A DNA stretch of 64,000 bases, from NCBI GenBank assembly GCA_947449575.1, contig CANFRV010000021.1, positions 1 through 64,000 on the forward strand. The letters are read 5' to 3'. The position numbers were made by a program, and so were the translations under genes. The notes beneath the pieces were generated by a model. The model saw only the letters and a program-made list of their open reading frames with translations. It was not told where the DNA came from and searched no databases. Within the stretch, counting starts at the first letter, position 1. Each line of letters begins with the position of its first letter. Origin of the DNA: Flavobacteriales bacterium. Lineage in GTDB: Bacteria > Bacteroidota > Bacteroidia > Flavobacteriales_D > Crocinitomicaceae. Of the stretch, positions 42,977 to 64,000 are shown one piece after another.

Positions 42977-42987
42977 CGATAATAGTA

Positions 42988-45176: not shown

Positions 45177-46801
45177 TAAAACAATTAAATCTCGGGTTTT
45201 TATCAAAAAAAATAGGTATTGACAATTTTAATAGGCTTAAAAATGCCTACTCGGAAATCTCTTTAGATGGTTATTTTAATGATAATATATCCGACAAAGA
45301 ACTTGCGGGTATTTTATTTGAAAATGTTATAAGTGATGATTTTTTTGAAAAAAAACAAAACCTTTCTGAATTTTATTTCGCACTCCCAGAAATCACTCAA
45401 AAGAAAATAAATAATGATTTAAATGTTAACTCAGGAAATGAAATTAAGTGGGATGAAAAAACATCTACCTATTTTATTGAAAAATTAGGCATTAATGAAA
45501 AATTTAGATGGAGAAAAGAAAAAAATAGCAATAATACTAATATTGGTTATTCTTATTTTGAAAAACCAAATTTAAAATTTAAAAAATTAAAAGACTATCA
45601 ATCAGGTGTGTTTTTTAAAGTTGAAAATTACCTTCTTAATACACCTTTTTCAAGATGTATTGTTCAAATGCCTACTGGGTCTGGTAAGACTAGAACTGCT
45701 ATGGAAGTAGTTTGCAGCATAATGAATCAAACTGGAAAGGATGTTTTGTGGTTAGCAAACACAGAAGAGTTATGTGATCAAGCATTTAATTCATTTACAG
45801 AAGTCTGGCATTTTTTAAGGCAACGAGAAGGAGCTGGAATTAATCATATGAAATTAAAATCTATTAATGATATAAATAAAAACATTCCTACTTTTCATGT
45901 TGCTTCACTTCAAAGTCTTAGTTCATTGGAAAGTGACAAAAAACTCACAAATTTTGGAATTATTCCGACAAATATTGAATTATTAGTTGTAGATGAGGCT
46001 CATATTTCTATTGCTCCAACATACAAAATAGCGATAAGCAACATAATTCAACAAGGCACTAAATTATTAGGACTTACAGCAACTCCAGGTCGACAGCTAA
46101 GAAAAAATTCAGGAAATGATGAAAATCAAGAATTAAGTGATTTTTATTTTAATAAACGTTTTGAAATTGAGACTGGTAATGAGTTACCAATAGAATTTTT
46201 AAGAACACGTGGGATTCTTTCAAATGCCATGTTTATTTCCGTTGAAGGGTCAAATTTAGAAAATACAATGTCAAAAAAAGAAATTGATAGTTTTCGTCTA
46301 AATGGAAATTTACCTAAAAACATATTAGATCTGCTTACAAATGACAATAAAAGAACATCTATAATATTTGATCAATTAGTTCAATTATTAGATAAAGGTA
46401 AAAAAATAATATTTTTCGGAACATCAATTGCTCATTCTGAAATGATTGCTACCTTACTTACAATTAAAGGTTTTAATGCAGCACATATAGATGGAAATAC
46501 AGGTAAATTTCGCTCAAAAATAATTGAAAACTTTAAAAACGGAGAAATACAAATTTTATGTAATTTCGGTGTCTTAAGCACAGGATTTGATGATCCTAAA
46601 ATAGACGTTGTGTTTATGGCTAGAAAAACGAACTCGATTGTTTTATATAGTCAAATAATTGGAAGAGGACTGCGAGGTCCGGTGATTGGGGGGACGGATA
46701 CCTGTGAAATTTATACAGTTTTCGACAATCTATTAGACCTGCCTTCCAATAATGATATTTATTCATATTTCGAAGAATATTTTGTTAATACTAACGATTA
46801 A
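45170..46801 (+). CDS. SF2 DEAH-type helicase linked to ssp genes
   Basis: The 543-residue protein has ordered SF2 motifs: QMPTGSGKTRTA (I, near residue 167), VDEAH (II, near 274), LTATPG (III), then FGTSIAHSEM, CNFGVLSTGFDDP (V) and SQIIGRGLRG (VI). This is the COG1061-like group common in restriction systems. The N-terminal 140 residues before the helicase core are unassigned. It overlaps the PC4-like gene and lies 3 bp before the PLD nuclease gene, giving a helicase-nuclease pair. Confidence 0.88.
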   Translation: MVIKQLNLGFLSKKIGIDNFNRLKNAYSEISLDGYFNDNISDKELAGILFENVISDDFFEKKQNLSEFYFALPEITQKKINNDLNVNSGNEIKWDEKTSTYFIEKLGINEKFRWRKEKNSNNTNIGYSYFEKPNLKFKKLKDYQSGVFFKVENYLLNTPFSRCIVQMPTGSGKTRTAMEVVCSIMNQTGKDVLWLANTEELCDQAFNSFTEVWHFLRQREGAGINHMKLKSINDINKNIPTFHVASLQSLSSLESDKKLTNFGIIPTNIELLVVDEAHISIAPTYKIAISNIIQQGTKLLGLTATPGRQLRKNSGNDENQELSDFYFNKRFEIETGNELPIEFLRTRGILSNAMFISVEGSNLENTMSKKEIDSFRLNGNLPKNILDLLTNDNKRTSIIFDQLVQLLDKGKKIIFFGTSIAHSEMIATLLTIKGFNAAHIDGNTGKFRSKIIENFKNGEIQILCNFGVLSTGFDDPKIDVVFMARKTNSIVLYSQIIGRGLRGPVIGGTDTCEIYTVFDNLLDLPSNNDIYSYFEEYFVNTND

Positions 46802-46804
46802 TAA

Positions 46805-47758
46805 ATGCAGCATTTATACAAAAGTGGTTTTAATATAGAAAAAGGAGCTATTGATTTCATTAGCAGTAATGAGTCGATCACTCTATTATCAGCCTATGTA
46901 AAACTAGGACAACTCAAGGTACTTAATACAGAAAAAAGAGTAATTCGAATTGTCGTTCGTTGGGAAATTGAAGACTTGGTTTTAGGCGTATCTGATTTTG
47001 AAGACTTATATGAATACTGTAAGAATAATAATATAGCACTATTTAGAAATACACGAATCCATTTAAAAGCTATTTGGAACAATGAAAATTCCATTCTTTT
47101 TGGCTCCGCAAATATTACAGGTAAGGGAATAGGTGAAAAAGGTAATAATTATAATTACGAGTTAGCTGGCATAGCAAATCATATTTCATTTGATGATATT
47201 TCGTATTTGAATTTGATTCTGAAAGAAAGTGAATTAGTAAATGATAGGTTATTCTTTGAAATAAAAACCATTATCGACAGTATCGAATTACCTGCAATTA
47301 AATTCCCTGAACTACCAACTAAAAAAAAACTTGATGATGAGTTCTTAATAACTCAACTGCCAATGACTAGTTCTCCAGATTTACTTTTTGAAATACTTCG
47401 AAATACAAACAACTATAGAATAGAAGATCAACTTAAAGCTTCACACGATAAAGTTCTCTATAATATTATTATTGAAGATGGAATTGAAGTATCTCGTTCA
47501 AAACTTAAAACAACTTTTAATAGTATGCCAATCATTGAGAAACTTAAGTTAAGTATTAAAGAAAATCCCCGTAAATCGATGGGATATGGTCAAGTGGTCA
47601 GATGGATTCAAGATTATACTACTTCGGTGCCAGCTCCAATGAGTTGGGAAATAAAAAAAGAACAAATAGTCAATAATTTGTATGAATGGATTTGTGAGTT
47701 TGATAGTAAATTCTCTTGGGATACACCAAATCATACTCAGGTTATCTATTTTAATTAA
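46805..47758 (+). CDS. PLD-superfamily nuclease linked to ssp genes
   Basis: The 317-residue protein has a single HKD-type motif, IHLKAIWNNENSILFGSANI near residue 85. This matches H-x-K plus the later G-S-x-N, with the usual aspartate position occupied by N or E. PLD nucleases dimerise to build one active site and cut DNA without metals. The C-terminal half carries a winged-helix-like stretch (MGYGQVVRWIQDYTT). It is the last gene of the five-gene sspA operon and probably its cutting enzyme. Confidence 0.75.
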   Translation: MQHLYKSGFNIEKGAIDFISSNESITLLSAYVKLGQLKVLNTEKRVIRIVVRWEIEDLVLGVSDFEDLYEYCKNNNIALFRNTRIHLKAIWNNENSILFGSANITGKGIGEKGNNYNYELAGIANHISFDDISYLNLILKESELVNDRLFFEIKTIIDSIELPAIKFPELPTKKKLDDEFLITQLPMTSSPDLLFEILRNTNNYRIEDQLKASHDKVLYNIIIEDGIEVSRSKLKTTFNSMPIIEKLKLSIKENPRKSMGYGQVVRWIQDYTTSVPAPMSWEIKKEQIVNNLYEWICEFDSKFSWDTPNHTQVIYFN

Positions 47759-48113
47759 TACAAATCTTATAACTCGGCACATATTAGTATGATTAATACT
47801 TCGAGTCCTCAAAACGTCTATATATTAGAATACTTTCATTGTATTTAAACTTCAGTAAGTTACATCTATAAACGTAATACTCAAAATTAGAGTTTACTCA
47901 TTTAGTCCTTTTATTAATCCTGCTAAAATGAAGTTTCTTGAAAGTCTGTAAAAATAGGAAAACTTTAACTTATCCCCTTGTATATTAGGTTTGTTTAATG
48001 AAAGTAAAAGCAAAAAATAGTGCGAATTCAATACCTGAATACTAGAACCATAAGGTAAAACAGCAAGAATCTAATCGACACTTTTTTTTACATAAAATCA
48101 ATGGTTGATTATT
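47759..48113. other. Intergenic region between the convergent PLD and sspD genes
   Basis: About 355 bp of AT-rich DNA between gene ends. A weak hairpin AATCAA-TGG-TTGATT (48096-48110) next to sspD may end one or both transcripts, but its T-runs are poor. Nothing else is recognised. Confidence 0.35.
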
Positions 48114-49223
48114 TTAAATAAAACAACTTGCACAACCTTCACCCTCTGCATCCATAATTTGGTCTTGCCAATTACGAGCGTGGTTGTTACGATTCATTCT
48201 TAGGTAATGTTCTTTTTTTATATTCGCTATCCTTTGAGGCAAAGCTAATTCAGATAATGTTTCTGAATCCATCCAAGAATAACCAGCTTTCTCGTATTCC
48301 ATTGCTTTTAAAAACAGATCATTATGTGTTTCATATAACCAAACCCATTCTATTTTTTGCTGATAAAAGCAAAAGAAACAACCTGAACGGCTCCGACTAT
48401 AAGTCCCTTTTTTTATTTCACCTTCAATTTCCACTTCATAAGTAAGAGGTTTATAATATTCAGGAATGCCAACACCAGATTTTTCTAAAATTTCAAAAAT
48501 ATCGTCACGAACGAGGTTATCAGAATTGTTAACCAAAGGAAAGTACTCAAGCTTTCCAACCGGATAATCAGTTTCTTTGAGCATTTCAAAAACAATTTTA
48601 TTGTACAACACAACATCAATATCTAGTAATGCATTCAATTTTTGTTTCAAATTAAAATTGGGGTTTATTTCTTGACTTGAAAGTAATTGAAATTGACTTG
48701 TTGTTTCAAATTTATCTAATTTACTTAAAAAAGAATCCTTGTTTTTATTTGAAAGTACCAATTTATTTACATCTTCGCTCCAGATATTTCTTCTAAATGG
48801 AAATATCGATTGAACACTTTGTTTCTTAGAAATATAACCATCCCTATCTTCATCTCCTCTAATTCCAACGTAAGAAATTGTCGGTGTGTCGCCTATATAG
48901 CTTTCAAATGGATCTAGCTTTAACTTTTTTGTACACCACCTTGATGTAGATGAAGGTAAATAACCTCCATACATACTTAAAAAATGATCAAATGCATTCT
49001 GGTCAGCAATATTTGTTAAATCAACTGCATCTAGTTTGAATATTTTTTTCCCAAGTTTACTTTCTAGACGGTCAATTAGAGCGTAAGTCTCATCTAACTC
49101 TCGCCCTGTATCGCTTGTGTAATATTCAACATCGAGTTCTGGATGTTTTTCATTCAGATAAATAGACAATGCAGCACTATCTTTACCTCCAGAAATTCCT
49201 AATATATGTTTAACTTCACTCAT
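48114..49223 (-). CDS. sspD: ATP-pyrophosphatase / PAPS-reductase-like sulfurtransferase (SspD/DndC-like)
   Basis: The 369-residue protein starts with the PP-loop ISGGKDSAAL, as in adenylating sulfurtransferases. Other family features follow: YYTSDTGRELDET, SRWCTKKLKLDPFE, YVGIRGDEDRDGY and cysteine pairs (SGCFFC near residue 284, GCASCFI at the end) that could carry sulfur or an Fe-S cluster. In Ssp/Dnd chemistry this protein activates the DNA backbone or transfers sulfur from SspA. Its start overlaps the end of sspC by 4 bp (ATGA), and it is the last gene of the sspBCD operon. Confidence 0.85.
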   Translation of the reverse strand: MSEVKHILGISGGKDSAALSIYLNEKHPELDVEYYTSDTGRELDETYALIDRLESKLGKKIFKLDAVDLTNIADQNAFDHFLSMYGGYLPSSTSRWCTKKLKLDPFESYIGDTPTISYVGIRGDEDRDGYISKKQSVQSIFPFRRNIWSEDVNKLVLSNKNKDSFLSKLDKFETTSQFQLLSSQEINPNFNLKQKLNALLDIDVVLYNKIVFEMLKETDYPVGKLEYFPLVNNSDNLVRDDIFEILEKSGVGIPEYYKPLTYEVEIEGEIKKGTYSRSRSGCFFCFYQQKIEWVWLYETHNDLFLKAMEYEKAGYSWMDSETLSELALPQRIANIKKEHYLRMNRNNHARNWQDQIMDAEGEGCASCFI

Positions 49224-52200
49224 TTATTGTTGATTATTTTATCTAGAAGTTTCATTAAAGTTATTTTATTAACCTCGGTATTTGAGCTCATCTCAGCAAT
49301 TAACTTTGATTCAAGATCATTTGCCATTTTTTCCAATGTTGGATTAATTACAATATTTCGTTTGTAGTTTGTGATTCCATCAGAACTTAAAACATTTATT
49401 TGAATTATTTTATCAGAACTTGAGTTTGAAATCGCATGTAAATCAATAAAATCTACTAAAATATCAAAATTCACTTTAAGTTTATCTAGTAAAAAAGGTA
49501 TTTCATTATCTGAAATTTTATCCAATTTTTTACCTAATACAGCATCAGTTAAAGATTCCCAATAGGCAGTTTTAACATCCAATGGTGAAATAACTCTGTT
49601 ATAAAATATTTTAATTTGTTCGTTTGAAATTAAACTTGGGGAGACCGATGAGAACTTTTTAATAAGTTGTTCTTTCACTCCATCAAATGTTCCGCTTCTT
49701 ATATCTAAATGTTCTAAAATATTATTTTCTATTATATCTATTAAATTTGAATAGGATGTTCGAATCTCTTTAATCGTTCCTTTTAACGATTCTAAAAACA
49801 TCAAATCTTCATTTGCCGATTTGTTGATTGAATTAAAACCCAATGCTCTAGGTATTAATTCAAATAGGGCTGATTCAGGATCTTTTGCTTTTGCGATAGC
49901 ATCTCTCACTCCTTGAGCTTGTGGAGTTAATTGCCGTGTATTTTTCGAGTACTCTTCTAGTCCACGATAAAATCTTAAAAAATTGCTATATATTGTAATG
50001 TAACTTGTTTCAAGCCCTTTAACATTGCTATCATTATATCCAACTAATTCTTTGTATGAATTAAAGTATTCATTATTTATACCATTAGTGGATAAATACT
50101 TAATAAAAAATCGACCGGGAGTTTTATGAATAATATCCATAATATCTGGCGTAAGATGTGGCACATATTCACCATCACTAGAATACAAAGAATAATCCTC
50201 TTTTTTAATGATTAAAAAAATTGGAATCCAAAAATCCAAAAATCCTTGTTTTAATTTAAAGGGTACCTCTTTTAAAATTTCATAAAAACTAGAGATAGGT
50301 TTGCGTGTTTCAGAACTGTCGCAAAGTATATCCATCGTTTTATCCCATAATTGCTTGAAAGATTCATCAGTTGGATCTTGATACTTCCAATTATGCTTTC
50401 CTTGAACATGTATTCCTGTCTTTTTAATTAGTGAGAGATAAATCGTTCGCTCTGGCGGAAATAATTTTGAATCAAAACCTATGTTTTCTTTTTCTCCCGA
50501 ATTAATTAATGCTTTTATTAATTGTTTTCTAGCGGTTAAAATAGGTGTGGAAAGAACTTCCTTGTTAACCATTTCATTTTTAAAAATCGGGCTTTTTGAA
50601 TACACATTTTCACAAATAAAACTTAATGTCTTATTAAGGTCTTTTTCTGAATTCAATTCTAACAGTTCCCCATTAAAAACCCAAAGAGTACCAGATTTGT
50701 TTTCAAATAAATCTTTTTTTAAGCTTGATGCAATTTTTTCAAGAAAAAAATTCCGATCTTCATTTAAAACTCTGTTTGCAACTTTATCATCAGGAAATTT
50801 TTCGATTACATAATTTATTTTATCAATTTCAAATAAGGCACTAGAAATATTTTCAACATTTGGCAACAGCGCAAACAGCTGAGCTGACTTTGTTTCCGAG
50901 GAGAAACTCTTTATTTTGTCAATTTTTATTGAAGGATTTATTATTAAATTGATGTATCCGTCAATTTCATTCATTGGGCTTTCAGCAACTAATTCTTCAC
51001 ATACTTTAAAAGCGAAAAATCTAGGAGATCCTTTTTCAAATTGAAACCTTTTTGCTGGAACAAAATCAAAATCGACATAAGAATTTATCCGATTAACAAG
51101 ATTAATATTTGGGTCAATGTGCTTAACTGCTTGGATTAATTCTTGCTCAAGATCAATGTCAGTGCCATCTAAGAAATTAAGTTTATTCCTTGTCCTAGAA
51201 TATTTTATTATATTTCTTCGTATAAGTTCTTCTATTAATACTTCGGGAGCATCTATTCCAAGTGATAATTTAGCGTAATTACATAATACTTTCTCATCTA
51301 ATGTACCGCTAGAATTAGAGAAAATATTTACAAGGCAAATAAGTTTTAATATTTTTTCGACCTGATTGTATTTGTTTTCAAATACAAATTCACATCTTTC
51401 CATTGCAATAATTGCAGCCTTCCATTGAGGTTTAAATGGGTTTTTTTCACCATCCTCAAGTTCTGAATTTAAATTTTCGATTAAGTAATCAAAACAGTCT
51501 ACAACACTAAATATTCTGCCTTCTTTAATAATCTTTTCAATAAATTCAGACTCAAGAAAAGTAAATAGCGACCTCTCATTTTGACCATAACGTTGTAGTG
51601 ACTTCGTTAATATGTCAGCGGCAAGAGGGTCAAGTGGGTATAATTCTTCGAAAAAATTAGATTCAGCATTACCTATTTTCCCAAGTAAATTAGATTTTAA
51701 TATTTGATTTGTAAGTTTTTCAAACGATTTTAAATTCTTTGGTTTGTATGGAGCCAGCCTTTTAGCTGCAAAAAACAACAATTGTTCCACCGGTTCATCA
51801 AAAGTAACTTCTAAAAGTCTTCCCCTAACTTTATCCCATTCTGAGCGTTGGGCTTTAGACAATCCTTTTGAATAAGATCCCACATTCTGATGAAGGGTTG
51901 TTATGAACAAAACATTCTTCAAAGGGTCGTTTAAATATTCACAAAGCTCTTGTATGAAATACATTTCATCTGGATTATTTTTTGCTATAAACTCCAAATG
52001 CTTCCCAAATTCATCTACCAAAATAACTAGGCCTATTTTCTTTTCTTGGATATCAGTAACCAACAAATCAAACTCCCTAAGAATAATTTTATTTGTTCCG
52101 CCGCTTAAATGAGATAAACCGAAAACCTCACAGAATTTCGTTTTAAATGAAATGGCCTCACCTATAATACGTGTAAAGCTGAAAGATTCAATATCAAAAC

Positions 52201-52438
52201 TTTGTTTCGCGAAACTAGTATTAAAATAAGATTCACCTTTAAGATGTTTTTCAAGTGCCCATAAAAATGAAGACTTACCGGTTCCATAAGAGCCAATAAT
52301 TGTAAATGAATTTTGCCCTTTACTATGATTAAAATCAATTTTATCAAAAACATCATTAGTGTTTTTTGTAACGATATAATCAATTTGAACTGAAGAATCA
52401 CGTTCTATATTAGTGGATATTTTAAATGCTCTTTTCAT
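49220..52438 (-). CDS. sspC: Large P-loop ATPase of the Ssp system (SspC-like)
   Basis: The 1072-residue protein has Walker A IGSYGTGKSS (about 48-57) and Walker B LVILVDEFGKHLEF (about 140-150), followed by a long helical body without further motifs. Size and position between a DUF4007 protein and a PP-loop protein match SspC, the ATPase that drives phosphorothioation in SspABCD systems. It overlaps sspB by 17 bp upstream and sspD by 4 bp downstream, so the three are translationally coupled. Identification rests mainly on context plus the ATPase motifs. Confidence 0.8.
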   Translation of the reverse strand: MKRAFKISTNIERDSSVQIDYIVTKNTNDVFDKIDFNHSKGQNSFTIIGSYGTGKSSFLWALEKHLKGESYFNTSFAKQSFDIESFSFTRIIGEAISFKTKFCEVFGLSHLSGGTNKIILREFDLLVTDIQEKKIGLVILVDEFGKHLEFIAKNNPDEMYFIQELCEYLNDPLKNVLFITTLHQNVGSYSKGLSKAQRSEWDKVRGRLLEVTFDEPVEQLLFFAAKRLAPYKPKNLKSFEKLTNQILKSNLLGKIGNAESNFFEELYPLDPLAADILTKSLQRYGQNERSLFTFLESEFIEKIIKEGRIFSVVDCFDYLIENLNSELEDGEKNPFKPQWKAAIIAMERCEFVFENKYNQVEKILKLICLVNIFSNSSGTLDEKVLCNYAKLSLGIDAPEVLIEELIRRNIIKYSRTRNKLNFLDGTDIDLEQELIQAVKHIDPNINLVNRINSYVDFDFVPAKRFQFEKGSPRFFAFKVCEELVAESPMNEIDGYINLIINPSIKIDKIKSFSSETKSAQLFALLPNVENISSALFEIDKINYVIEKFPDDKVANRVLNEDRNFFLEKIASSLKKDLFENKSGTLWVFNGELLELNSEKDLNKTLSFICENVYSKSPIFKNEMVNKEVLSTPILTARKQLIKALINSGEKENIGFDSKLFPPERTIYLSLIKKTGIHVQGKHNWKYQDPTDESFKQLWDKTMDILCDSSETRKPISSFYEILKEVPFKLKQGFLDFWIPIFLIIKKEDYSLYSSDGEYVPHLTPDIMDIIHKTPGRFFIKYLSTNGINNEYFNSYKELVGYNDSNVKGLETSYITIYSNFLRFYRGLEEYSKNTRQLTPQAQGVRDAIAKAKDPESALFELIPRALGFNSINKSANEDLMFLESLKGTIKEIRTSYSNLIDIIENNILEHLDIRSGTFDGVKEQLIKKFSSVSPSLISNEQIKIFYNRVISPLDVKTAYWESLTDAVLGKKLDKISDNEIPFLLDKLKVNFDILVDFIDLHAISNSSSDKIIQINVLSSDGITNYKRNIVINPTLEKMANDLESKLIAEMSSNTEVNKITLMKLLDKIINNK

Positions 52439-53300
52439 AATAATTTTTTAGAACATCCCATTTGCTTATTTCGTTTTTTATCTGAATTTCCTTTCTTCCA
52501 GAGTCATCTTTGTATACAATATAACCTTTTTCTTGAAGCTCAATCAATTTAGTTTCCGTTCCTTCTCGATTACACAAAAATAAATCTGAAATCTCATTTT
52601 GGATGTCACTAACAGAAATCGATATTTCGCCCTCAAAGGAATCTAAAATTGAAAACAATAAAACTTCAGAAGGAAGATTTTCTTTGGCATTATATAATAA
52701 TTTGAATACTTGTAAACCTTCTATATATAAATCTGGAACAATAGTTATAATATCAAGGTTTATTAACAAAGAAGAAAAATCATCCTCTAAACTTTTTGAT
52801 CCTTTTTTATAAAGCGAAACATAATTTCTAATAAAAACTTTGACGTCATTCTCAATAGATTTTTGACTGAAATTAACACCTTCAATAATTAAATATTTAC
52901 AAATAAAATCTTCTAACTGCTTAGATGTGAATTCGGACGAAATTCTTGTTTTTCTGAAATTTAAAAATGCTAATTTATATATTGAAGAATAGTTTTTCTT
53001 TAATAATTTAAAATGAAGCAACCACAATGAACCTTCATCTTCTAAAAAACTATCAAAGCCGGCATCGTTAAAAATATTATTTCCAAATTCAGTAATTTCA
53101 TCTTCTTCAAATATTCCGAATGCATTCATCCAAAACTGAATTGATAAAACCATATTTTTCCCAACACCTAATTTAACGACAGCATCATTGTCTTTAAAAT
53201 TATTACCTTCACTTGCAAAATTGTATCCTTTTTTAAGCCAAAAGTGTTTACAATGAAAGGTTTCATGCCCGGCAAATCTCCAATTATTCATATGTTTCAA
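52422..53300 (-). CDS. sspB: DUF4007 protein, SspB-like DNA nickase candidate
   Basis: The 292-residue protein begins with NWRFAGHETFHCKHFWLKKG, the DUF4007 hallmark (F-A-G-H-E-T-F ... W-L-x-K-G), followed by VVKLGVGKNMV. DUF4007 is the SspB family, which supplies the strand-nicking step of single-strand phosphorothioation. The start may be M1 or M4 (MKHMNNW). It is the first gene of the minus-strand sspBCD operon. A TATATTTG element on its strand lies 87-94 bp upstream. Confidence 0.87.
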   Translation of the reverse strand: MKHMNNWRFAGHETFHCKHFWLKKGYNFASEGNNFKDNDAVVKLGVGKNMVLSIQFWMNAFGIFEEDEITEFGNNIFNDAGFDSFLEDEGSLWLLHFKLLKKNYSSIYKLAFLNFRKTRISSEFTSKQLEDFICKYLIIEGVNFSQKSIENDVKVFIRNYVSLYKKGSKSLEDDFSSLLINLDIITIVPDLYIEGLQVFKLLYNAKENLPSEVLLFSILDSFEGEISISVSDIQNEISDLFLCNREGTETKLIELQEKGYIVYKDDSGRKEIQIKNEISKWDVLKNYYEKSI

Positions 53301-55672: not shown

Positions 55673-56209
55673 CTAAATTTTTGTCAATGATTTTTTCAAA
55701 TATTCGAAAAATAGTTCAGCCGTCATAAATTCTTCACCCATCCATTTATAAAATAACTCTTTGTTTAAAACAATAAAAGCATTGCTGCAAGCCCTTTTAA
55801 TTACCCCAGTTGATTCAATAAGCTTAATTATTTCGATTGTTGAATAACCAAAAGTTTTTAATGAAATGTTTTTAACAACATTAGCCCCAAAAAAATTATC
55901 AGTAAATCGTCCATCTAATATTTCCTCTTTGTCATTAAAACCTTTTATGATACAATGGCTTTTAAAAATTCCAACTCCGCTTAATCTAAGTGGATTTTCT
56001 TGAAGAAACTCGTTAACCGACAAAAGACTATTTCCCTTAACAACTCGTTCGGACTTAAATCTTATTATATTTCCATCATAATCTAAATTATTGTTTAAAT
56101 CAACTTTAGTTAGCGTCAATAAATCAACAGTAATGCCCTCTAAAGATGTCACATATCTTTCGTGGTTTTGATGATCAATCCAATTAAAAGGTAAAGTTAT
56201 CGTGTTCAT
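55673..56209 (-). CDS. Hypothetical protein at the end of the receiver-HEPN cluster
   Basis: The 178-residue product is beta-rich at the N-terminus (MNTITLPFNWIDHQNHERYV) and helical at the C-terminus (FYKWMGEEFMTAELFFEYLK). It has no motif I recognise and no signal peptide. It lies 91 bp downstream of the 951-residue gene on the same strand and may be the last member of that operon or a separate unit. Confidence 0.55.
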   Translation of the reverse strand: MNTITLPFNWIDHQNHERYVTSLEGITVDLLTLTKVDLNNNLDYDGNIIRFKSERVVKGNSLLSVNEFLQENPLRLSGVGIFKSHCIIKGFNDKEEILDGRFTDNFFGANVVKNISLKTFGYSTIEIIKLIESTGVIKRACSNAFIVLNKELFYKWMGEEFMTAELFFEYLKKSLTKI

Positions 56210-56300
56210 AATTTGAAATTTTAGGGAATTAAGTAATTGTTACTTTTACTTACTCTATATTTTTTTAAGATTGATTTATTATTCAATTCTAAAGAGAAAT

Positions 56301-59156
56301 TTAAGTAACCATTTCTTTCGGGAAAACAACATCATGATATTTTTTAATTGCAAATGCTCGTTCGAGATCTTTCGTTAAATCAATTTTCTTTCCACATTTT
56401 GAGTTTGAACAAACTAATAAATTTATTTCTTTTATATAGGGCTCAGCTACAAGTTGAACAGTTTGACTTCTATCTGCAATGTTAGGTATATTGAAGCCAA
56501 CCAGTGAAAGATTATATAATTTTTGTTGAAATTGTTCTTCACTTAATTTACCTTGTGAAAATAAAAACCACCAACCACCATCATTTTTTCTTCTCCCAGA
56601 TGAACTCACAATTTCACGATTAAACGAATTTTGTCTGAAAAATTCAATTATTACCGTCCGTTTATTAGAATCTCCTCCATTTATCATGGTGTCACCACAT
56701 TCATTACAAAATATTATACCTTGATCCTTGTGACCTTCATGATGGCAGGTATAATTTCTGCTATTTGTTTTCAAATTATCAATTCTTCGTTTCAAAGCGA
56801 TATTTGAACAACAAGAATGGCAATTCTGGCATATATACCATCCGCATTCTTCACTTTTATAACCCGCAGGTGAACATTTAACACTATCTCTACTATCTAT
56901 AATATCTGAACATCTACCGTTTAAACAATGACTTATATAAATTGATTTATCATTCTTACTCTCCTCACAGTCAGTATTTGTGCAACAAAAATAATTTACT
57001 CCCCAAAAAGCATAATTTGATTTACCTTTGGGCCTTAAAATATGCTTACAAGACCTGCAATTCATATGACTAAAAAAACGATTCAATTTATTTATCACAT
57101 TTAAATAAAGCTCTAAATCAATTTCGTTATACTCTATTTTCAAGATATGAAGAAAGTCCATAAGTGAATAATTTTCCCAATCTACAGATGAATGAAGGCT
57201 TCTAGATGGTTCATGACAAGGTTTGTTTCCACACCACCAGAATTCTTTATTCGTTATTTCATGCAGATTAGGGACGGAGGATCCTTTTTTAAGGGATTTT
57301 CTTCCATCACAGTATGAATGCATCTTCGGGTAATCAAAGCTACTTCTTTCGTATTTTAATTCGATCGTCTTTTCACCATCTTTGTCAATGATCTCCTTTT
57401 TATTTACTTTACATCTTCCTCCACATGTATCGAAGAATCCTTCGATTTCCAATATATCTTCGGGATCATTTATTTGATTAACAACTATTTCAAAAATTTT
57501 AGATGTAATATTCTTTTCGTCAAACGATTTATATTCATTTAACTCTTTGACTATATTTAAAATAATACTTGTGGAAAAATCTAATTTTGTTCCGTCAACT
57601 TTTTGAATCGATTTACTAATCTCATAGTCAATAACATTTAAATTTGTGAATTCATCCAATTCAAGTGAAACTCTACCTTCATGTATATACTTTAGTACTT
57701 TTTTAACAAACCTTCTTTGCTCAAAAGAACTAAGAGTGATTATATATGGTTTGAATAGTGGATAATCTAGTTCCTCAATATAACCATCAATCCACAGGTT
57801 TAATTTATAGTATTCTGGGACAATTCTTTGTAATTCTGCCAAGACTTTTTCACAAGTTTCAGGGGTATAGTCTGTTGAAATTTGTAATATTGTTTTTATA
57901 TCAGAATAATTCGACTTTGCTTCTTTAAAGTCTAAATTAAGAATACTTTTAAAGATAATATTTATTCTATCCTCTTGATTACATTTTGAAAATATTTTTT
58001 CCTTTTCAGAATCATCTAAATTATTTAATATTAATGCAATATGATCAATTTGACATATGTCAAGTATATCGATTAACCATAATTTATGTGCAATTTCTAT
58101 ACTAACTTTAGAAGTGCATAGGTTCTTGTAAGCAATTAGATTATCTGGTAAATATCCTTCTAAGAAATAAAAATAATCTCTAATATCATCTAAATTTGCA
58201 AAGAACTCGCTTTGCAATTCATTCTGAATAAAATGAGTATTAGAATCCAACAAGATTTTTAAAGCAATTTTAGAATCCTTTGATTTTTTAATTATTTCAG
58301 CACGTAGATCTTTTTCAACTACCCAAAAATCTCGCAAGAAGAAATTCTGATTATGATTATGTATCGAATCAAACAAGTCGGTAAAAATTGGATCCTCAGT
58401 TACTAAAATAAATTTTAATAACTTAGAGATTTGATCATTATCAGAAGTTCCTTTATAAATTAAATGAAGTAAAAGTTTTTGTCTGATTTCACTGTTTAAC
58501 TTATTGAAGACTTTTTCTTGAATATGATTTTCAAATGATTCAAAAGAAGGAATTAAATATTCCTCATCGATATAGTTTACTTTATTTTCTAACCACAGAT
58601 CTAATAAGGTCTTTTTATCTATTGATTTATAAAAAAACAACTCTAATTCCTCTGAAAAAGAATTGTCTATCTTTTTTAAAAATAAAATGGTTTCAATGAT
58701 TATTTTAGAGTCAAACTGATCATTTTTCTGGTTAAAATCATCAAAAACAATAGTTTTAAGACGGCTTAGGGATTCTATCTTTTTCTCTTCATTAAATTCT
58801 CTATAAATAATAAGTATTCTATTTTCTAGATAAAATTTGATTTTTTTGGAATCACTGTTCTCTGGTCCCTTAATTGCTGATAACAACTCATTAAATAAGA
58901 ATTCTAAATCAATTTCATTTTCTATTAAACGGACATTGTAAGCCTCAAAAGATCCCTTTTTATGTTTTGATTCTTTTGAATTAAATATTACTACTGCATC
59001 TTCTTTAAAACTAGAAAGTTCCTCCGTTTGATCAATTAAATTTTCATTGAAATAATGTTGTCCAACTAACGGATGTCTTACAAATCCATATTTTGCATTG
59101 CGTATCTGATCATAAAACCAATCAACAATTCCTATATATTTAATATTATCTTTCAT
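56301..59156 (-). CDS. Large protein with N-terminal cold-shock-like OB domain and C-terminal zinc-rich region
   Basis: Residues 1-80 of this 951-residue protein follow the cold-shock-domain layout: IKYIGIVDWFYDQIRNAKYG, then FVRHPLVGQHYF, then FKEDAVVIFNSKESKHKKGS and AYNVRLIE, so it should bind single-stranded RNA or DNA. Residues about 90-560 are helical with no motif. From about 575 to 930 there are many Cys/His clusters: FDTCGGRCKV, WWCGNKPCHEPS, CRSCKHILRP, FCCTNTDC, CGWYICQNCHSCCS, IFCNECGD and CSNSKCGKK, implying several zinc sites. It follows the tandem OB-fold gene by 12 bp and is probably the large nucleic-acid-handling component of the receiver-HEPN operon. Confidence 0.7.
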   Translation of the reverse strand: MKDNIKYIGIVDWFYDQIRNAKYGFVRHPLVGQHYFNENLIDQTEELSSFKEDAVVIFNSKESKHKKGSFEAYNVRLIENEIDLEFLFNELLSAIKGPENSDSKKIKFYLENRILIIYREFNEEKKIESLSRLKTIVFDDFNQKNDQFDSKIIIETILFLKKIDNSFSEELELFFYKSIDKKTLLDLWLENKVNYIDEEYLIPSFESFENHIQEKVFNKLNSEIRQKLLLHLIYKGTSDNDQISKLLKFILVTEDPIFTDLFDSIHNHNQNFFLRDFWVVEKDLRAEIIKKSKDSKIALKILLDSNTHFIQNELQSEFFANLDDIRDYFYFLEGYLPDNLIAYKNLCTSKVSIEIAHKLWLIDILDICQIDHIALILNNLDDSEKEKIFSKCNQEDRINIIFKSILNLDFKEAKSNYSDIKTILQISTDYTPETCEKVLAELQRIVPEYYKLNLWIDGYIEELDYPLFKPYIITLSSFEQRRFVKKVLKYIHEGRVSLELDEFTNLNVIDYEISKSIQKVDGTKLDFSTSIILNIVKELNEYKSFDEKNITSKIFEIVVNQINDPEDILEIEGFFDTCGGRCKVNKKEIIDKDGEKTIELKYERSSFDYPKMHSYCDGRKSLKKGSSVPNLHEITNKEFWWCGNKPCHEPSRSLHSSVDWENYSLMDFLHILKIEYNEIDLELYLNVINKLNRFFSHMNCRSCKHILRPKGKSNYAFWGVNYFCCTNTDCEESKNDKSIYISHCLNGRCSDIIDSRDSVKCSPAGYKSEECGWYICQNCHSCCSNIALKRRIDNLKTNSRNYTCHHEGHKDQGIIFCNECGDTMINGGDSNKRTVIIEFFRQNSFNREIVSSSGRRKNDGGWWFLFSQGKLSEEQFQQKLYNLSLVGFNIPNIADRSQTVQLVAEPYIKEINLLVCSNSKCGKKIDLTKDLERAFAIKKYHDVVFPKEMVT

Positions 59157-59168
59157 TGTATTTAACTA

Positions 59169-59786
59169 TTAAAATGGCCAATTTTCAGGATTTGAATCAT
59201 CAAACTTTTGTGTATTATCAATCAATCCCTTTTCGACAAGTTCAATTTTCCAAGCTTTAATTTCTGTAATCCAATTTTGACTAAAATTTCTACTTTCTAC
59301 TAATAATTCTAAAGAAACGATATCTCCAATTGAAAAATCAGTTATATCAATTTTATTATTCACAAATGACACACAAAATCTTTTATCACCTAAAGTAAGT
59401 GGTTCAAAAATTATTTCTTTTTTACTCCAAGTTTCCCCAACTTTTTCTGGTAAAAACTCTACTATTTTTGCATTCGTTTTGAGAGGTTTAATACCCGAAA
59501 CCCAAGAGCGTAAAATGTTTTTTACAGTTGATGGATTTTCTTTTAATAGTAATTTAGAATAATAGTTTCCATTATACAATTGGCTCTCAATTTTTAAATC
59601 AAAATCGTAATCAGAACCAATTATCAAATCAGAAATATCAAATAGATCATTCCAAATCGTTAGAACTACTTTTTTTGGATAAGTATCTTTTGTCAGAACA
59701 ACAATATTTTGTCTTTTCCAATTTCCATAAGCACTAGATCCAGTTTCAACAGGAAGTAATTCAAAAAATTTGGCCGTAAGTATCAT
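59169..59786 (-). CDS. Tandem DUF3127-like OB-fold protein with SSB-like tail
   Basis: The 205-residue product contains two OB-like repeats: LLPVETGSSAYGNWKRQNIV ... YPKKVVLTIWND, then FLPEKVGETWSKKEIIFEPL ... ESRNFSQNWITEIKAWKIEL. It ends DDSNPENWPF, an acidic aromatic-Pro-Phe tail as in SSB. Single-domain DUF3127 proteins have about 115 residues, so this is a duplicated form. It overlaps the 168-residue gene upstream by 4 bp. It probably binds single-stranded nucleic acid. Confidence 0.72.
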   Translation of the reverse strand: MILTAKFFELLPVETGSSAYGNWKRQNIVVLTKDTYPKKVVLTIWNDLFDISDLIIGSDYDFDLKIESQLYNGNYYSKLLLKENPSTVKNILRSWVSGIKPLKTNAKIVEFLPEKVGETWSKKEIIFEPLTLGDKRFCVSFVNNKIDITDFSIGDIVSLELLVESRNFSQNWITEIKAWKIELVEKGLIDNTQKFDDSNPENWPF

Positions 59787-60289
59787 AATTGATTATTTTG
59801 ATTTTTTAATTCTAAACTTAATTGTTCAATGCATTTCAAAATTTGCTCAAAAACAGATTTTCTGAATTTTAAAATGTCTTCAAGATCTTTAATTTTGTTT
59901 TCATCATGATCATAAAATCTATAACCAAGAGAATTGCTTTTTACTCCCGAATAGATTAAACACGGTAATTTTTCACTGACATAACGAATTTGTTTTTTAC
60001 CTGTCTCAAAATTATCGAGTTCATCAAAAAAATGGTTCTCGTTTTTATTGAATTCTAAAACTTCAATTTTAGATATTGTCCTAAATTCCTCTTTCAATTT
60101 TAAATTATTAAAGGAAATTGTAAGAAAACCATACAAATTTGTAAATGCTATATCTAAACCATAAAAATCTTTTGAAATGAATGTTAAAATTTCATTCTCT
60201 GTATTTATATAAATCGCAAATCCTTTATCAACAAAGTGATCAATCATATACTTTGTCCATTTTTTTTCATCTACTTTTTTTATCGGCAT
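59783..60289 (-). CDS. Hypothetical protein in the receiver-HEPN operon
   Basis: The 168-residue product starts MPIKKVDEKKWTKYMIDHFV and has alternating beta segments (NEILTFISKDFYGLDIAFTN, then LTISFNNLK). It ends with a helical stretch SVFEQILKCIEQLSLELKNQ. No family is recognised. It sits between two DUF3127-type genes, 55 bp after one and overlapping the other by 4 bp. This placement suggests it works with the OB-fold proteins. Confidence 0.6.
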   Translation of the reverse strand: MPIKKVDEKKWTKYMIDHFVDKGFAIYINTENEILTFISKDFYGLDIAFTNLYGFLTISFNNLKLKEEFRTISKIEVLEFNKNENHFFDELDNFETGKKQIRYVSEKLPCLIYSGVKSNSLGYRFYDHDENKIKDLEDILKFRKSVFEQILKCIEQLSLELKNQNNQL

Positions 60290-60344
60290 AATTAAGATTT
60301 TTACAAATCTATTTCCTTTTTATGCAATATATCTGCACAGCAAA

Positions 60345-60698
60345 TTAAAAAGGTAAACCATCATCTGGCTTTTCATCTAAATCCAAAGGAGTAATATCGT
60401 TTAATTTATTTTGAGTTAAAGAACCAGATGAAATTAATTCTATTTTCCAAGCCTTTAAATCGGTATACCAACGACCAGAAAATTCTCGACTTTCTGCTTC
60501 AAAATCAATCATTAAGGTATTACCTATTTCCAATTGTTGTGCATTGATTTTATCTCCCCAAATGGAAATGCACACATTTTTAGGATATTGACCATCAGTT
60601 TCTACAATGATGTCTTGTTTCCTCCATTCGCCGTTTTTGCCTGAGCCTGTTTGAATTGGAAGTAGTTGTTTGAGTTTTGCTGTTAATTGCATTTTCAA
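60345..60698 (-). CDS. DUF3127 SSB-like OB-fold protein (paralogue of 41237-41584)
   Basis: The 117-residue protein has LPIQTGSGKNGEWRKQDIIV, WGDKINAQQLEIGNT and SREFSGRWYTDLKAWKIE, nearly identical to the DUF3127 protein at 41237-41584, and ends EKPDDGLPF. The acidic C-terminal tip with Pro-Phe fits partner recruitment by SSB-like proteins. Its ATG overlaps the stop of the receiver-HEPN gene by 4 bp. Two close paralogues in two different candidate systems suggest repeated recruitment of this ssDNA-binding module. Confidence 0.82.
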   Translation of the reverse strand: MKMQLTAKLKQLLPIQTGSGKNGEWRKQDIIVETDGQYPKNVCISIWGDKINAQQLEIGNTLMIDFEAESREFSGRWYTDLKAWKIELISSGSLTQNKLNDITPLDLDEKPDDGLPF

Positions 60699-62347
60699 TT
60701 TATTTGTTTAATTATTCTTACCAAATTCTCTAGCAGAGCCACACACTTCTCTGCATCTGGTTGCTTTTTACCAGGATGGCTAACATTATTTCTATATTCC
60801 TTGAAGTCATAAAACTTTTTATAGTAAGTAAGTCCATCCAATCTTAATCGTTCAATAATGAATGTAATAAAACCATGAAAAACATTTCCAAAGGGAAAAT
60901 CATAAGGGACTAATTTTCGTTTCTTTTCATCGAATTTTTTAATATGAAAACCTCCTTTTTTTATGCTATTTTCAATTTTATGCTTGTAGATATATTCAAC
61001 AATTAAATAAATTGAAATAAAAGAGTGATTTAGTAGGTTTTGAAATTCCCCTCTGCCAATCCTTTCATTATGATTCATTCTTTCCAAAAGTGCACAGGAT
61101 ATGCTCAGTTGGTTCATTATATCTATTTCAAATTGTGATTTGATATCATTTTTTCCGGTGTTAATATTAAATTCTCGATTATCCACAAAATGATTAGTTA
61201 ATTCTTTTGTTAGAGAATATAATTTTCTTAAATATTCTGATCTATTGAAACATCCTTTAACTTGTAATTGAAGATTTTTTAAGTTATTAGTTGTTTGATT
61301 TATTGAGACATTAAATTCAGGTGATTCTTTTAAATAATAACCATCTGCACCTTGATCTAGCAGAGATTTAAGATTCCAAGTCTTATTTGATGCTGTAAAA
61401 ATAATAACTTGATTTCCTTGGTTAATTGATTTGATTTTTTGAAGTATTTTCATCCCAGAGAAATCTTCAGTTTTCAAATTCTCATCTTCATCCAAACCGT
61501 TTAAACGGAGATCTACCAAATATAAATCGAAACTTTCATTTTCAATAATTTTCTTGCTACTCTCTGAGAATGACTCATATTCTTTTACTTTTTCGTTTAT
61601 TACTACGAAATCATCTAATGAGGAAGTTTTAAATATTTTTTTTAAAACAGAATCCCAACCTTTATTCGCCTCATCATCGATGTATAAAATCCTTTTAGAT
61701 TTGGCTTCAATAATTAAGTTTTCATATTGGAAATCTGGCTCCAAACGATTATCACCATTTATTAATGGTAAATTGTTTACAGCAACGACAAATTTAAAGT
61801 GAATTGATTTCTTAAAATCTGCATTATCATCTAAAACCAATGTATTTGCAGCTCTATCTAAAGCATATGCGCCCCAAATATTCGCTAGAGAGTGCCTTCC
61901 CACAGTTTCATCAGGTTGAATATTGATTTGTTTTAAAAAACCAGTCAAATATTCTGATTCTTTTATTACCTCAATATATTCAATTTCTCGTTTAACCATT
62001 TCCAAATCGAAATCACAAAAATGTGTACCGGCAGTAGATAGAATATGATTATACCCTCGAGAACTTATCATAATTTGACTTAATGATTGTGAACTAATGA
62101 ATAAAATTGGAGTTAAAACCTTATTTCGCAGTTGCTCTATGCTAAGGCGAACGTGATAACCTATCTGTAATGAAGCGATAGGATTATCTGTTATCTCTAT
62201 GACTAGCTTTTCAATGTCGTTAGTTTTAAATAGATTAATAACCCAGTTATGAATTTTAATTTCATTATCAAAATTTTCAACCTTGATAAAATTGCAACCT
62301 AATTCACCAAGGACATCACTATTTCCAAGTATGTATGTTTTTTCCAT
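60695..62347 (-). CDS. Receiver-HEPN fusion protein
   Basis: The 550-residue protein has a central response-regulator receiver domain (about 217-345). It has an intact acidic pocket YIDDE (D224/D225), phosphoacceptor D279 (LYLVDLRL), T318 (IIFTAS) and K340 (YYLKESPE). The C-terminal domain (about 405-550) is helical and ends KEYRNNVSHPGKK, whose R519-x4-H524 fits the Rx4-6H motif of HEPN ribonucleases. The N-terminal 200 residues are unassigned and perhaps another degenerate receiver. I read it as an RNase controlled by phosphorylation. It overlaps the upstream receiver-like gene by 29 bp and the DUF3127 gene by 4 bp. Confidence 0.75.
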   Translation of the reverse strand: MEKTYILGNSDVLGELGCNFIKVENFDNEIKIHNWVINLFKTNDIEKLVIEITDNPIASLQIGYHVRLSIEQLRNKVLTPILFISSQSLSQIMISSRGYNHILSTAGTHFCDFDLEMVKREIEYIEVIKESEYLTGFLKQINIQPDETVGRHSLANIWGAYALDRAANTLVLDDNADFKKSIHFKFVVAVNNLPLINGDNRLEPDFQYENLIIEAKSKRILYIDDEANKGWDSVLKKIFKTSSLDDFVVINEKVKEYESFSESSKKIIENESFDLYLVDLRLNGLDEDENLKTEDFSGMKILQKIKSINQGNQVIIFTASNKTWNLKSLLDQGADGYYLKESPEFNVSINQTTNNLKNLQLQVKGCFNRSEYLRKLYSLTKELTNHFVDNREFNINTGKNDIKSQFEIDIMNQLSISCALLERMNHNERIGRGEFQNLLNHSFISIYLIVEYIYKHKIENSIKKGGFHIKKFDEKKRKLVPYDFPFGNVFHGFITFIIERLRLDGLTYYKKFYDFKEYRNNVSHPGKKQPDAEKCVALLENLVRIIKQIN

Positions 62348-63050
62348 ATTTAGTGTAACTTTCTAAAATTGTATTAATATTTTTTTTAAAATCTTGAACT
62401 CGAATTGTTTGATTTTTTACTGATTTCAAAATAGCTTCAAGATCCGAAGTTGGTAGCGCATCTTCAATAAATTTTTCGAAACTACTTTTTATCGACATGA
62501 TATCAGACAACTGCAAAAAATCGGCATTGCTTTTACTTTGCAAGGCTATTAGTATTTCTGCGCCTAGTTTGATATTCTGCGCCGCAGCATAATTTTTGCC
62601 TATAGCTATTATCTTAAGTTCTATCTTTTGGGTCTGCTTATAGTTATCAAGAAAATCATATAATCTTTCATAGAAAATATTTTTTTTGATTCCTCTTATG
62701 TACTTAAGGTCTTCGTTTGCTTCAAAGTCTGGTTCACCCATTGAATTACTGAATAGAACCAAAGGAATTGTCTTACCTTGCATGGAAATAAAATCTTTTA
62801 TTTTTATGACATTGGTAATCGATCCTGAAATAAAACCTTGAGTATCTTGAAAGTCCTCAGTTGTTGAATGGAGTAAAATGCAATCTGCAGATTTTAAAAA
62901 TTCTAAATGACTAAAATCTACTAGACTTTTTCCTATTTCTAATTTGTCTATTACCTTGATAAAACCGTCAAATACCCCTTCTTCAAGGAAAGTAATATTA
63001 TAATTCTGTTGTCTCAGATTATTCTGATTATCGTCAATTAAATAAATCAT
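62319..63050 (-). CDS. Degenerate receiver-domain protein
   Basis: The 243-residue product begins MIYLIDDNQNN, the acidic pair of a receiver domain. The phosphoacceptor strand reads DCILLHSTTED, with His where Asp is expected, and later strands give LVLFSNSMGE (Ser/Thr position) and IRGIKKNIF (Lys position). The receiver is therefore probably unable to be phosphorylated in the normal way. The C-terminal 100 residues are helical and unassigned. It lies 2 bp after the upstream gene and overlaps the receiver-HEPN gene, indicating a shared complex. Confidence 0.6.
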   Translation of the reverse strand: MIYLIDDNQNNLRQQNYNITFLEEGVFDGFIKVIDKLEIGKSLVDFSHLEFLKSADCILLHSTTEDFQDTQGFISGSITNVIKIKDFISMQGKTIPLVLFSNSMGEPDFEANEDLKYIRGIKKNIFYERLYDFLDNYKQTQKIELKIIAIGKNYAAAQNIKLGAEILIALQSKSNADFLQLSDIMSIKSSFEKFIEDALPTSDLEAILKSVKNQTIRVQDFKKNINTILESYTKYGKNIHTWK

Positions 63051-63052
63051 TT

Positions 63053-63958
63053 CTATTTATAATAAAAGGTTAAAATATGTGTGAAACCTTCAACATTTGA
63101 ATCAATCGTTTCAACTGCTGGTGTATCGTTATCTCTTAAAATATTAACTCTAGAAGGTTTGTCTTCAATTATTGTTTCCACCGACCAGTAACAATAACCT
63201 TCCAAATTTGCACTAATTTTTCCTATGCTCCCTTTTTCCTTCCATTCGCGCAAAATAACTTGTAGTTCCTTTTTAGGATATGAGTTATGATGAGTAATAT
63301 AGAGTTTGCGAATAAAAAACTCATCTTGTATACCAAATTCATAACTTATTGTTATCTTCTTTCTGTAATCTGATGAAGATCTATCTTTAATTTCTTTAAA
63401 AATGGTTTCTAGTGCTATTTTAAGGAATTTTACATGAGTATAGAAATCTGCCTTATCAAGATCACATTTTTTTATTTCATAACTTGTAATGTCTTTTTCT
63501 AGTACTTTTACAAGGGTTGCGTCAATCAATTTTTCTAGATTTGGATCCTTGATTCTTGTAATTCGCTTAAAATCATTTATAATGCCCTCATATTTTTCAT
63601 TTCTTATAGGGTGTAAACTATTTTGTTTAGACCAGTGTCGCAACTCTTCAGATGCCCAACCTGTATTTATATTAATGTCTTTTGTATAATCATCTGATAT
63701 AGATGTCCATGATGCTTGCTTTGAATCAAAAGCAAATTCTTTTACAATTCGCCATAAACTTGGAGGAATATCAAGTTCTCTAGTGTGATCACTAAAAACT
63801 TGAAATGCAGAACGTAAAAATTCATCTATATTAAAATCGGTGTTTTCATCAAAGTCATGAGTCAGATATTTTAATCCGTCTCGCTTATTAAACAAAGACA
63901 TAAATTCTGCAACATGTTTTGGGTTTGGAATTTTTCGATTTTCATTTTCTTGAATCAT
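63053..63958 (-). CDS. Hypothetical protein, possibly a degenerate histidine-kinase-like ATPase; may extend past the right edge
   Basis: From the first ATG at 63958 the product has 301 residues, but the frame remains open to base 64000, so the true start may lie outside the window. The C-terminal half resembles the order of a HATPase_c domain: a FLKIALETIFKEIKDRS helix, a strand ISYEFG, RKLYITHHNS where the G1 box would be, GSIGKISANLEGYCYWSVET where G2 would be, and a closing GFTHILTFYY strand. The key Asn/Asp/Gly residues are not conserved, so ATP binding is doubtful. It is the first visible gene of the receiver-HEPN operon and fits a sensor role. Confidence 0.55.
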   Translation of the reverse strand: MIQENENRKIPNPKHVAEFMSLFNKRDGLKYLTHDFDENTDFNIDEFLRSAFQVFSDHTRELDIPPSLWRIVKEFAFDSKQASWTSISDDYTKDININTGWASEELRHWSKQNSLHPIRNEKYEGIINDFKRITRIKDPNLEKLIDATLVKVLEKDITSYEIKKCDLDKADFYTHVKFLKIALETIFKEIKDRSSSDYRKKITISYEFGIQDEFFIRKLYITHHNSYPKKELQVILREWKEKGSIGKISANLEGYCYWSVETIIEDKPSRVNILRDNDTPAVETIDSNVEGFTHILTFYYK

Positions 63959-64000
63959 CCCTATTTCTAACTCATAATTACTTTTGTTTATGTCGTCTTG

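Follow-up and report, generated by a model that had tools for sequence, protein, structure and literature searches.

A probable retron operon combining a histidine-kinase-like protein, receiver domains and a predicted HEPN RNase in a Flavobacteriales bacterium

Organization of the operon

The window analysed here comprises the first 64,000 nucleotides of contig CANFRV010000021.1 from a Flavobacteriales bacterium. Eight minus-strand open reading frames at its right end lie where a preliminary description, made from the sequence alone, had placed them. The outermost is cut by the window edge, but the contig continues to 70,148 and contains the complete gene, which encodes a 484-amino acid protein (63053–64000 in the window, full gene to contig position 64507) matching Pfam PF22561 (E = 6e-62), the HisKin-conflict domain. 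Abutting it upstream with zero gap, beyond the window, is the gene for a 426-amino acid retron-type reverse transcriptase (RT; contig 64508–65788, or L002:12509-13789; minus strand; RVT_1, E = 1e-19). Some 360 bp separate the RT from a divergent WYL regulator on the plus strand (contig ∼66149–67153, start chosen by eye; WYL, E = 1e-8), and a retron-like noncoding RNA lies between them on the minus strand (contig 65789–66046, with an msr model match at 65926–66046).

The genes downstream of HisKin, all on the minus strand, encode a 243-amino acid degenerate receiver-like protein, here termed IR (62319–63050); a 550-amino acid protein with an inactive receiver (iREC), a receiver (REC) and a HEPN domain (60695–62347); a 117-amino acid DUF3127 protein (60345–60698); a 168-amino acid protein (59783–60289); a 205-amino acid tandem DUF3127 protein (59169–59786); and a 951-amino acid cysteine-rich protein (56301–59156). 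The operon thus runs from the RNA through the RT, HisKin, IR and the iREC-REC-HEPN protein to the DUF3127, 168-amino acid, tandem DUF3127 and 951-amino acid genes, the last four being accessory. The IR and iREC-REC-HEPN genes overlap by 29 bp, and the 550/117 and 168/205 amino acid gene pairs each overlap by 4 bp. These positions and overlaps, together with the co-occurrence of the core genes elsewhere, bear out the joint, tightly packed operon proposed in the preliminary description. A 178-amino acid gene (55673–56209, minus strand) lies 91 bp downstream of the 951-amino acid gene and is perhaps the last member of the operon; its membership is doubtful, as its product matches nothing in Pfam or NCBIfam and lacks relatives at the other RT loci read.

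The preliminary description had also suggested extending the sequence rightwards in search of a sensor, and the RT and structured RNA were found just past the window edge. The sensor missing from that description is most likely this retron, upstream and outside the window.

Elsewhere in the window, relatives of SspA, SspD, SspC and SspB (DNA phosphorothioation), with GHKL ATPase, helicase-like and PLD-like proteins between them, occupy 41918–53300 and form a defence island beside the retron. An RtcR-type CARF-AAA-HTH activator lies at 39677–41104 (minus strand; PADLOC, E = 6e-134), and a protein matching the PADLOC HEC-06, Orf5 and SspE models at 33902–35821 (plus strand). There is a second retron-type RT at 37974–39095 (plus strand; PADLOC retron model score, 311 bits), neighboured by a DnaB-like helicase gene (36734–37777) and a 187-amino acid protein without a Pfam match (39100–39663) that gives us the impression of a sliding-clamp piece. 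A third RT is found on contig C15.

Reverse transcriptase and upstream RNA

Retron RTs are marked by YADD, NAxxH and VTG motifs, and the RT of this operon carries all three. Across the 22 related loci that encode a HisKin domain (see below), YADD and VTG are present in 22/22 and NAxxH in 18/22; one of the four RTs lacking NAxxH is truncated. Among PADLOC retron models the RT scores 327 bits to type XI, 319 to type XII and 156 to type IX. None of the NCBIfam retron models attains its cut-off with this protein, and the NCBIfam Drt2 model scores 56 bits. A diversity-generating (DGR) reading was dropped on the PADLOC RT model scores.

The regions upstream of these RTs share a pattern. First comes an a1 strand, then a ATATTGAT-like box and a hairpin whose loop is conserved; another hairpin and an AT-rich stretch follow, and an a2 strand immediately precedes the RT start. 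The complementary a1 and a2 ends lie beside the RT, as in retron noncoding RNAs. Across 15 sequences, the 27 pairs of the structure can form in 91.3% of cells, a share that leans toward the relative (L048) on which the structure was drawn by hand; slid versions of the structure pair in 30–46% of cells. Two-sided changes occur in 17 of the 27 pairs, against a shuffled mean of 8.5; the covariation score reaches 0.431, compared with 0.213 after shuffling. None of 500 shuffles equals the observed pairing share, two-sided changes or covariation score; the shuffles keep the kinship among loci, and the counts are not independent events.

A covariance model, R1, was built from seven relatives with the window's locus excluded. 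A scan of 53 sources, 928,628 bases in all, returned 25 matches with E ≤ 1. Of these, 18 had E ≤ 1e-4, including the window's locus at E = 1.6e-5, and seven were weak. Every one of the 25 lies on the strand of the RT and ends 109–262 bases ahead of the aligned RT start, the distance at the window's locus being 137. The model matches 17 of the 22 HisKin loci, four of these weakly (E = 0.017–0.59), and is without a match in L032, L033, L034, L038 and L042; the L038 contig begins inside the RT, so that the RNA region falls off its end. The 153-base RNA stretches of L027 and L026 are identical, as are those of L036 and L014. On the 64,000-nucleotide window itself the best R1 hit has E = 0.18, with no significant match, because the RNA lies past the window edge.

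Other RNA searches gave less. Rfam returned three matches at the RNA region, all far under their gathering scores and none to a retron RNA. RNAalifold found no structure when 16 upstream regions were aligned automatically and recovered part of the a1/a2 pairing when given seven. The output of a duplex scan, which consisted of long AT-rich pairings, was set aside.

Kinase-like, receiver and HEPN proteins across related loci

A genome scan with the RT alignment yielded 43 loci, which with the window's locus and seven plasmid loci make 51 RT loci, each read with our own profiles. Among the plasmids searched, two from Chryseobacterium carry the same four-gene core. Read with a profile version free of fused RT regions, a HisKin domain is present at 22 of the 51 loci: the window's, two of the seven on plasmids and 19 of the 43 in genomes. 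The receiver-HEPN module is found in all 22. The preliminary description had made its proposal depend on the genes staying together in other genomes, and for the core they do. The recurrence of the core order exceeds chance, though the locus counts are not independent events because some loci are near-copies (L026/L027 and L014/L036 among the 22). On the two Chryseobacterium plasmids (L014:575-8275 and L015:615-8268) the retron comes directly after genes whose annotations read DNA methyltransferase, restriction subunit S and DEAD/DEAH helicase.

The RT and HisKin form one protein in seven of the 22 loci (L022, L027, L029, L030, L032, L033 and L042; two of these fusions were examined with Pfam), and an eighth fusion occurs in genome G557. 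Gene borders also shift within the receiver part, which is split into IR-iREC and REC-HEPN genes in L021 and is a single gene in L024; such shifting borders fit one complex.

A separate scan with the Pfam HisKin-conflict domain found the window's genome alone among 296 genomes of the phylum, five genomes among 395 of the class, and five above the cut-off among 299 of the order, along with a fragment in G784 that falls below the cut-off, is broken by internal stops and was excluded. The samples overlap and contain eight distinct genomes above the cut-off, the window's included. The RT is adjacent or fused in 8/8, and the receiver-HEPN gene follows in 8/8, though in one the contig ends within it. 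Five of the seven genomes other than the window's appear to be in the RT-locus set already; G557 and G324 are new. Viral contigs scanned with the HisKin and receiver-HEPN proteins contained no relative.

The predicted structure of a 301-amino acid HisKin domain (pLDDT 88) resembles solved histidine kinases and PDK-type kinases, most closely a histidine kinase (VIA Z = 13.2 over 138 residues). An alignment of HisKin domains from 20 of the 22 loci (L014 and L015 left out) has no conserved columns corresponding to an H-box, N-box or G-box: no Asn column reaches 80%, the DHp-like helix has no shared His, and DxGxG is present in 1/20 rows, the DHp and N-box helices being assigned on our own reading. 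Three columns are invariant, holding Lys, Gly and, close to the start, His; the His is residue 34 of the 301-amino acid fragment and is present in 18/18 rows that have a letter there. We read HisKin as a pseudo-kinase, with a kinase-like fold and unrecognizable catalytic motifs; the Pfam match, the fold and the missing motifs agree with the degenerate kinase-like protein of the preliminary description. A classical phosphorelay is doubtful because the domain has no recognizable catalytic motifs, and an unusual kinase is conceivable because the His is invariant.

The 550-amino acid protein matches iREC (PF22563, E = 1e-11) and, at 29.2 bits slightly short of the 30.2 cut-off, Response_reg (E = 1e-6). 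In its predicted structure (pLDDT 82) the receiver superposes on solved receivers with Z = 14.2 over 123 residues. The receiver pocket residues D224, D225, D279, S/T318 and K340 are kept in 17/17 aligned rows, 15 from RT loci and two from the RT-less loci L012 and L013. A phosphorylation trigger, as initially proposed, is doubtful in so far as the kinase-like protein, which lacks recognizable catalytic motifs, would have to supply it, although the receiver pocket is kept. IR has no Pfam match; in profile comparisons its family matches the receiver of the operon at 66% probability and the N-terminus of the one-gene relatives at 99%.

The HEPN motif RNNVSH spans R519–H524. The intact receiver fused to a HEPN domain was correctly recognized at the outset. 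The receiver alignment misaligns the HEPN columns in four rows, and HEPN counts are taken from other alignments. The receiver-HEPN protein carries an R-x(4-6)-H motif toward its C-terminus in 22/22 loci, and the R, N and H of the motif are invariant in 16/16 aligned rows, an alignment that spans 16 of the 22 loci (omitting L014, L027, L029, L034, L038 and L040). Loss of the motif in homologs, which the preliminary description would have counted against itself, is thus not what we see. The HEPN part has no Pfam match of its own in the window's protein. The family profile matches the CRISPR RNase Csm6 (PDB 6tug; E = 0.0032) with the motifs aligned, and one of 24 relatives matches Pfam's Csm6 HEPN domain (E = 0.0034); in the structure search with the 550-amino acid model, receivers filled the matches listed and no HEPN chain was among those, which does not argue against a HEPN fold. 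The motif and the Csm6 match point, as anticipated, to an RNase, and the receiver-HEPN protein is probably the toxic effector.

Two further loci of the same phylum (L012:5279-13567 and L013:5392-13926), both RT-less, encode a large kinase-like protein with MARNMSHNIGSH, a small protein, an iREC-REC-HEPN protein and a second receiver-like protein. These genes, read by eye, lie downstream of ABC-transporter-like genes.

The HisKin loci are not a single clade in the RT tree, where their distribution requires at least eight changes (shuffled mean 17.0). A group of 33 RT rows (support 93/92) includes 12 without HisKin, and in 12/12 of these a protein with R[ND]x2-3H directly follows the RT (shuffled mean 1.4, highest 7; many of the loci are related, and the shuffles are not independent events). 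The usual HEPN motif is R-x4-6-H. R-x4-H is present in eight of the 12 sister loci and the shorter R-x3-H in four. In Pfam these small proteins gave one weak match, to DUF4145; they match the receiver-linked HEPN at 7% probability, and their profile matched no solved HEPN structure. If these are indeed HEPN proteins, this RT group would deploy its HEPN toxins either bare or linked to receivers, as though one version stood in for the other. On two cyanobacterial plasmids the gene after a related RT (L016:8674-9462 and L018:7974-8879) carries a HEPN-like motif, RNIASH in the one and RNHRSH in the other, and an ATPase gene comes next.

The genes beyond the module are less constant. A TBP-TOTE helicase and S1/CSD protein pair, matching PADLOC PDC-M16A/B, follows in 13 of the 22 HisKin loci. 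A DUF3127 gene comes immediately after the receiver-HEPN module in four: the window's locus, L021, L046 and L048. The RT of L021 is the sister of the window's RT in the tree, and the two loci share their order through the DUF3127 gene and the 168-amino acid gene, whose relative in L021 is at the same place; there the helicase pair takes the place of the window's second DUF3127 gene and 951-amino acid gene. At L040:14780-15766 a PLD-like protein gene overlaps the end of the receiver-HEPN gene and may be a further accessory.

Both DUF3127 assignments hold (PF11325; E = 5e-28 for the 117-amino acid protein and E = 2e-26, over two stretches, for the 205-amino acid protein), whereas no solved structure bears out the likeness to single-stranded DNA-binding proteins claimed for the former, the best match having E = 0.19. 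The 951-residue protein has 27 cysteines; its cold-shock part is not borne out by Pfam, which gives no CSD match, and the plasmid proteins that carry the annotation “cold shock domain-containing” align with other residues, 501–785. This protein has no solved-structure match, and none of the 50 other RT loci has a relative of it within the stretch fetched, contig ends cutting some of these short. Distant relatives occur on 130 plasmid records, with 25–28% identity over 15–30% of its length among the 20 matches listed, and in the two records examined they sit in type I restriction operons. Judged by their distribution, these putative nucleic-acid-binding genes, for the DUF3127 and 951-amino acid proteins, are variable accessories.

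Interpretation and comparison with described systems

Considered together, the RT, the structured RNA beside it and a HEPN-bearing gene of predicted toxicity in 22/22 HisKin loci are consistent with a retron of an apparently undescribed type, in which a HEPN toxin would be gated by a pseudo-kinase and receiver cassette. We put the probability of this reading, including the RT-DNA, RNA cleavage and defence that it entails, at roughly 0.7. The operon is probably an anti-virus system, judging from its genes.

In this reading the RT would copy part of the RNA into msDNA, and the RT-msDNA particle would hold the pseudo-kinase, which would dock on the receiver module as a kinase does on a receiver and keep HEPN inactive. 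Phage damage to the msDNA particle, or phage binding of it, would rearrange the kinase-receiver contacts. The receiver would then change state, a small phosphodonor or a different kinase perhaps acting on its conserved phosphorylation pocket, and the HEPN domains would pair and cleave cellular RNA, stopping growth of the infected cell. The DUF3127 and 951-amino acid proteins may bind nucleic acid and widen the sensing. A more far-reaching version, to which we give a little less than even odds, is that a repurposed two-component cassette reads the msDNA sensor: an RT-coupled histidine-kinase fold would act through degenerate and intact receivers on the HEPN RNase, with the state of the receiver setting the threshold for self-killing.

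The closest rival shares the retron with the preferred reading but casts HisKin as an active kinase of an unusual kind: when the RT-msDNA particle senses phage, HisKin would phosphorylate the receiver, and the phosphorylated receiver would turn on HEPN. It overlaps the preferred reading, and our confidences need not sum to one. The conserved receiver pocket, the resemblance of HisKin to histidine kinases and PDK-type kinases and the invariant His speak for such a phosphorelay; we consider it unlikely in view of the missing Asn and DHp His columns and the near absence of DxGxG. That the upstream RNA is instead a template, from which an RT of the DRT kind makes another DNA product on infection, has a precedent in the noncoding RNAs used by other RT defence systems, as two abstracts describe them (PMC12489045, PMC12483538). 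A classical msr-msd is nevertheless favoured by a1/a2 ends that pair immediately upstream of the RT and by the margin of 327 bits to a PADLOC retron model over 56 to Drt2, which leave the DRT reading very unlikely.

The RT could also be a chance neighbour of a self-contained kinase-receiver-HEPN system gated by the DUF3127 and zinc proteins. L012 and L013 speak for this, having the iREC-REC-HEPN gene together with kinase-like and second receiver-like genes (the last two by eye) and no RT. This is highly improbable given the RT-HisKin fusions, the RT in 8/8 HisKin-conflict genomes, the conserved retron-like RNA and the scarcity of DUF3127 directly after the module (4/22). Least probable is an operon with no part in defence, serving regulation or the maintenance of a mobile element. 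The relatives on two Chryseobacterium plasmids would suit it, as would a gene resembling tyrosine recombinases that lies 2.5 kb upstream of the RT; the SspABCD-like genes nearby and the PDC-M16A/B-type helicase pair in 13/22 loci argue for defence.

If a two-component cassette does read the msDNA sensor, this would be the first retron, within the searches made, in which a signalling step separates the sensor from the toxin. Kinase and receiver folds, classic parts of bacterial signalling, would be placed between a retron and a HEPN toxin, and both phage sensing by the retron and receiver gating of the RNase become testable. The Pfam domains PF22561 (“Histidine Kinase domain observed in conflict contexts”) and PF22563 (“Inactive Receiver domain”), both present in the operon, gain a context in this group; a model now also exists for a retron-like RNA missed by Rfam here. 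The two domains were reportedly described, most likely, by Burroughs and Aravind in 2020 (J Bacteriol).

Retrons are described as a complex of RT, RNA and RT-DNA that sequesters a toxic effector; 13 types have been counted, plus one added with HipA and DUF3037, according to a 2025 paper (PMC12548924). The preliminary description recognized no described defence system with this content, and we likewise found no retron with this gene content in the literature searched, from which most subscription journals were outside coverage; the call of novelty is provisional because that coverage is incomplete. The nearest RT models, PADLOC types XI (RT-protease), XII (RT-TIR) and I-C (RT-Toprim), are single genes in which the RT has an extra domain, whereas RVT_1 is the sole Pfam domain of the 426-amino acid RT here, which has no fused protease, TIR or Toprim; these types were rejected. 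The TOTE pair (Pfam TBP-TOTE and S1CSD-TOTE), common after receiver-HEPN in related loci, is missing in the window, where the DUF3127, 168-amino acid and 951-amino acid genes are found instead.

By function, the nearest described system is the type IX retron Kva2 of Klebsiella variicola, as presented in PMC13405049. There, a HEPN protein is sequestered in the RT-msDNA complex, and a phage protein that binds the msDNA releases it to cut tRNA. The two systems are alike in being retrons with a HEPN RNase effector, the RNase here being predicted from the genes. Membership of type IX was rejected on the fusion of HEPN to receivers, the lack of a Pfam winged-helix match among the operon proteins and the RT scores (156 bits to type IX against 327 to type XI). 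As far as that source describes it, the Kva2 HEPN is a separate 19 kDa protein without the canonical motif, accompanied by a winged-helix protein; in contrast, the HEPN domain of the operon described here has an R-N...H motif, is fused to receivers and is accompanied by a putative pseudo-kinase.
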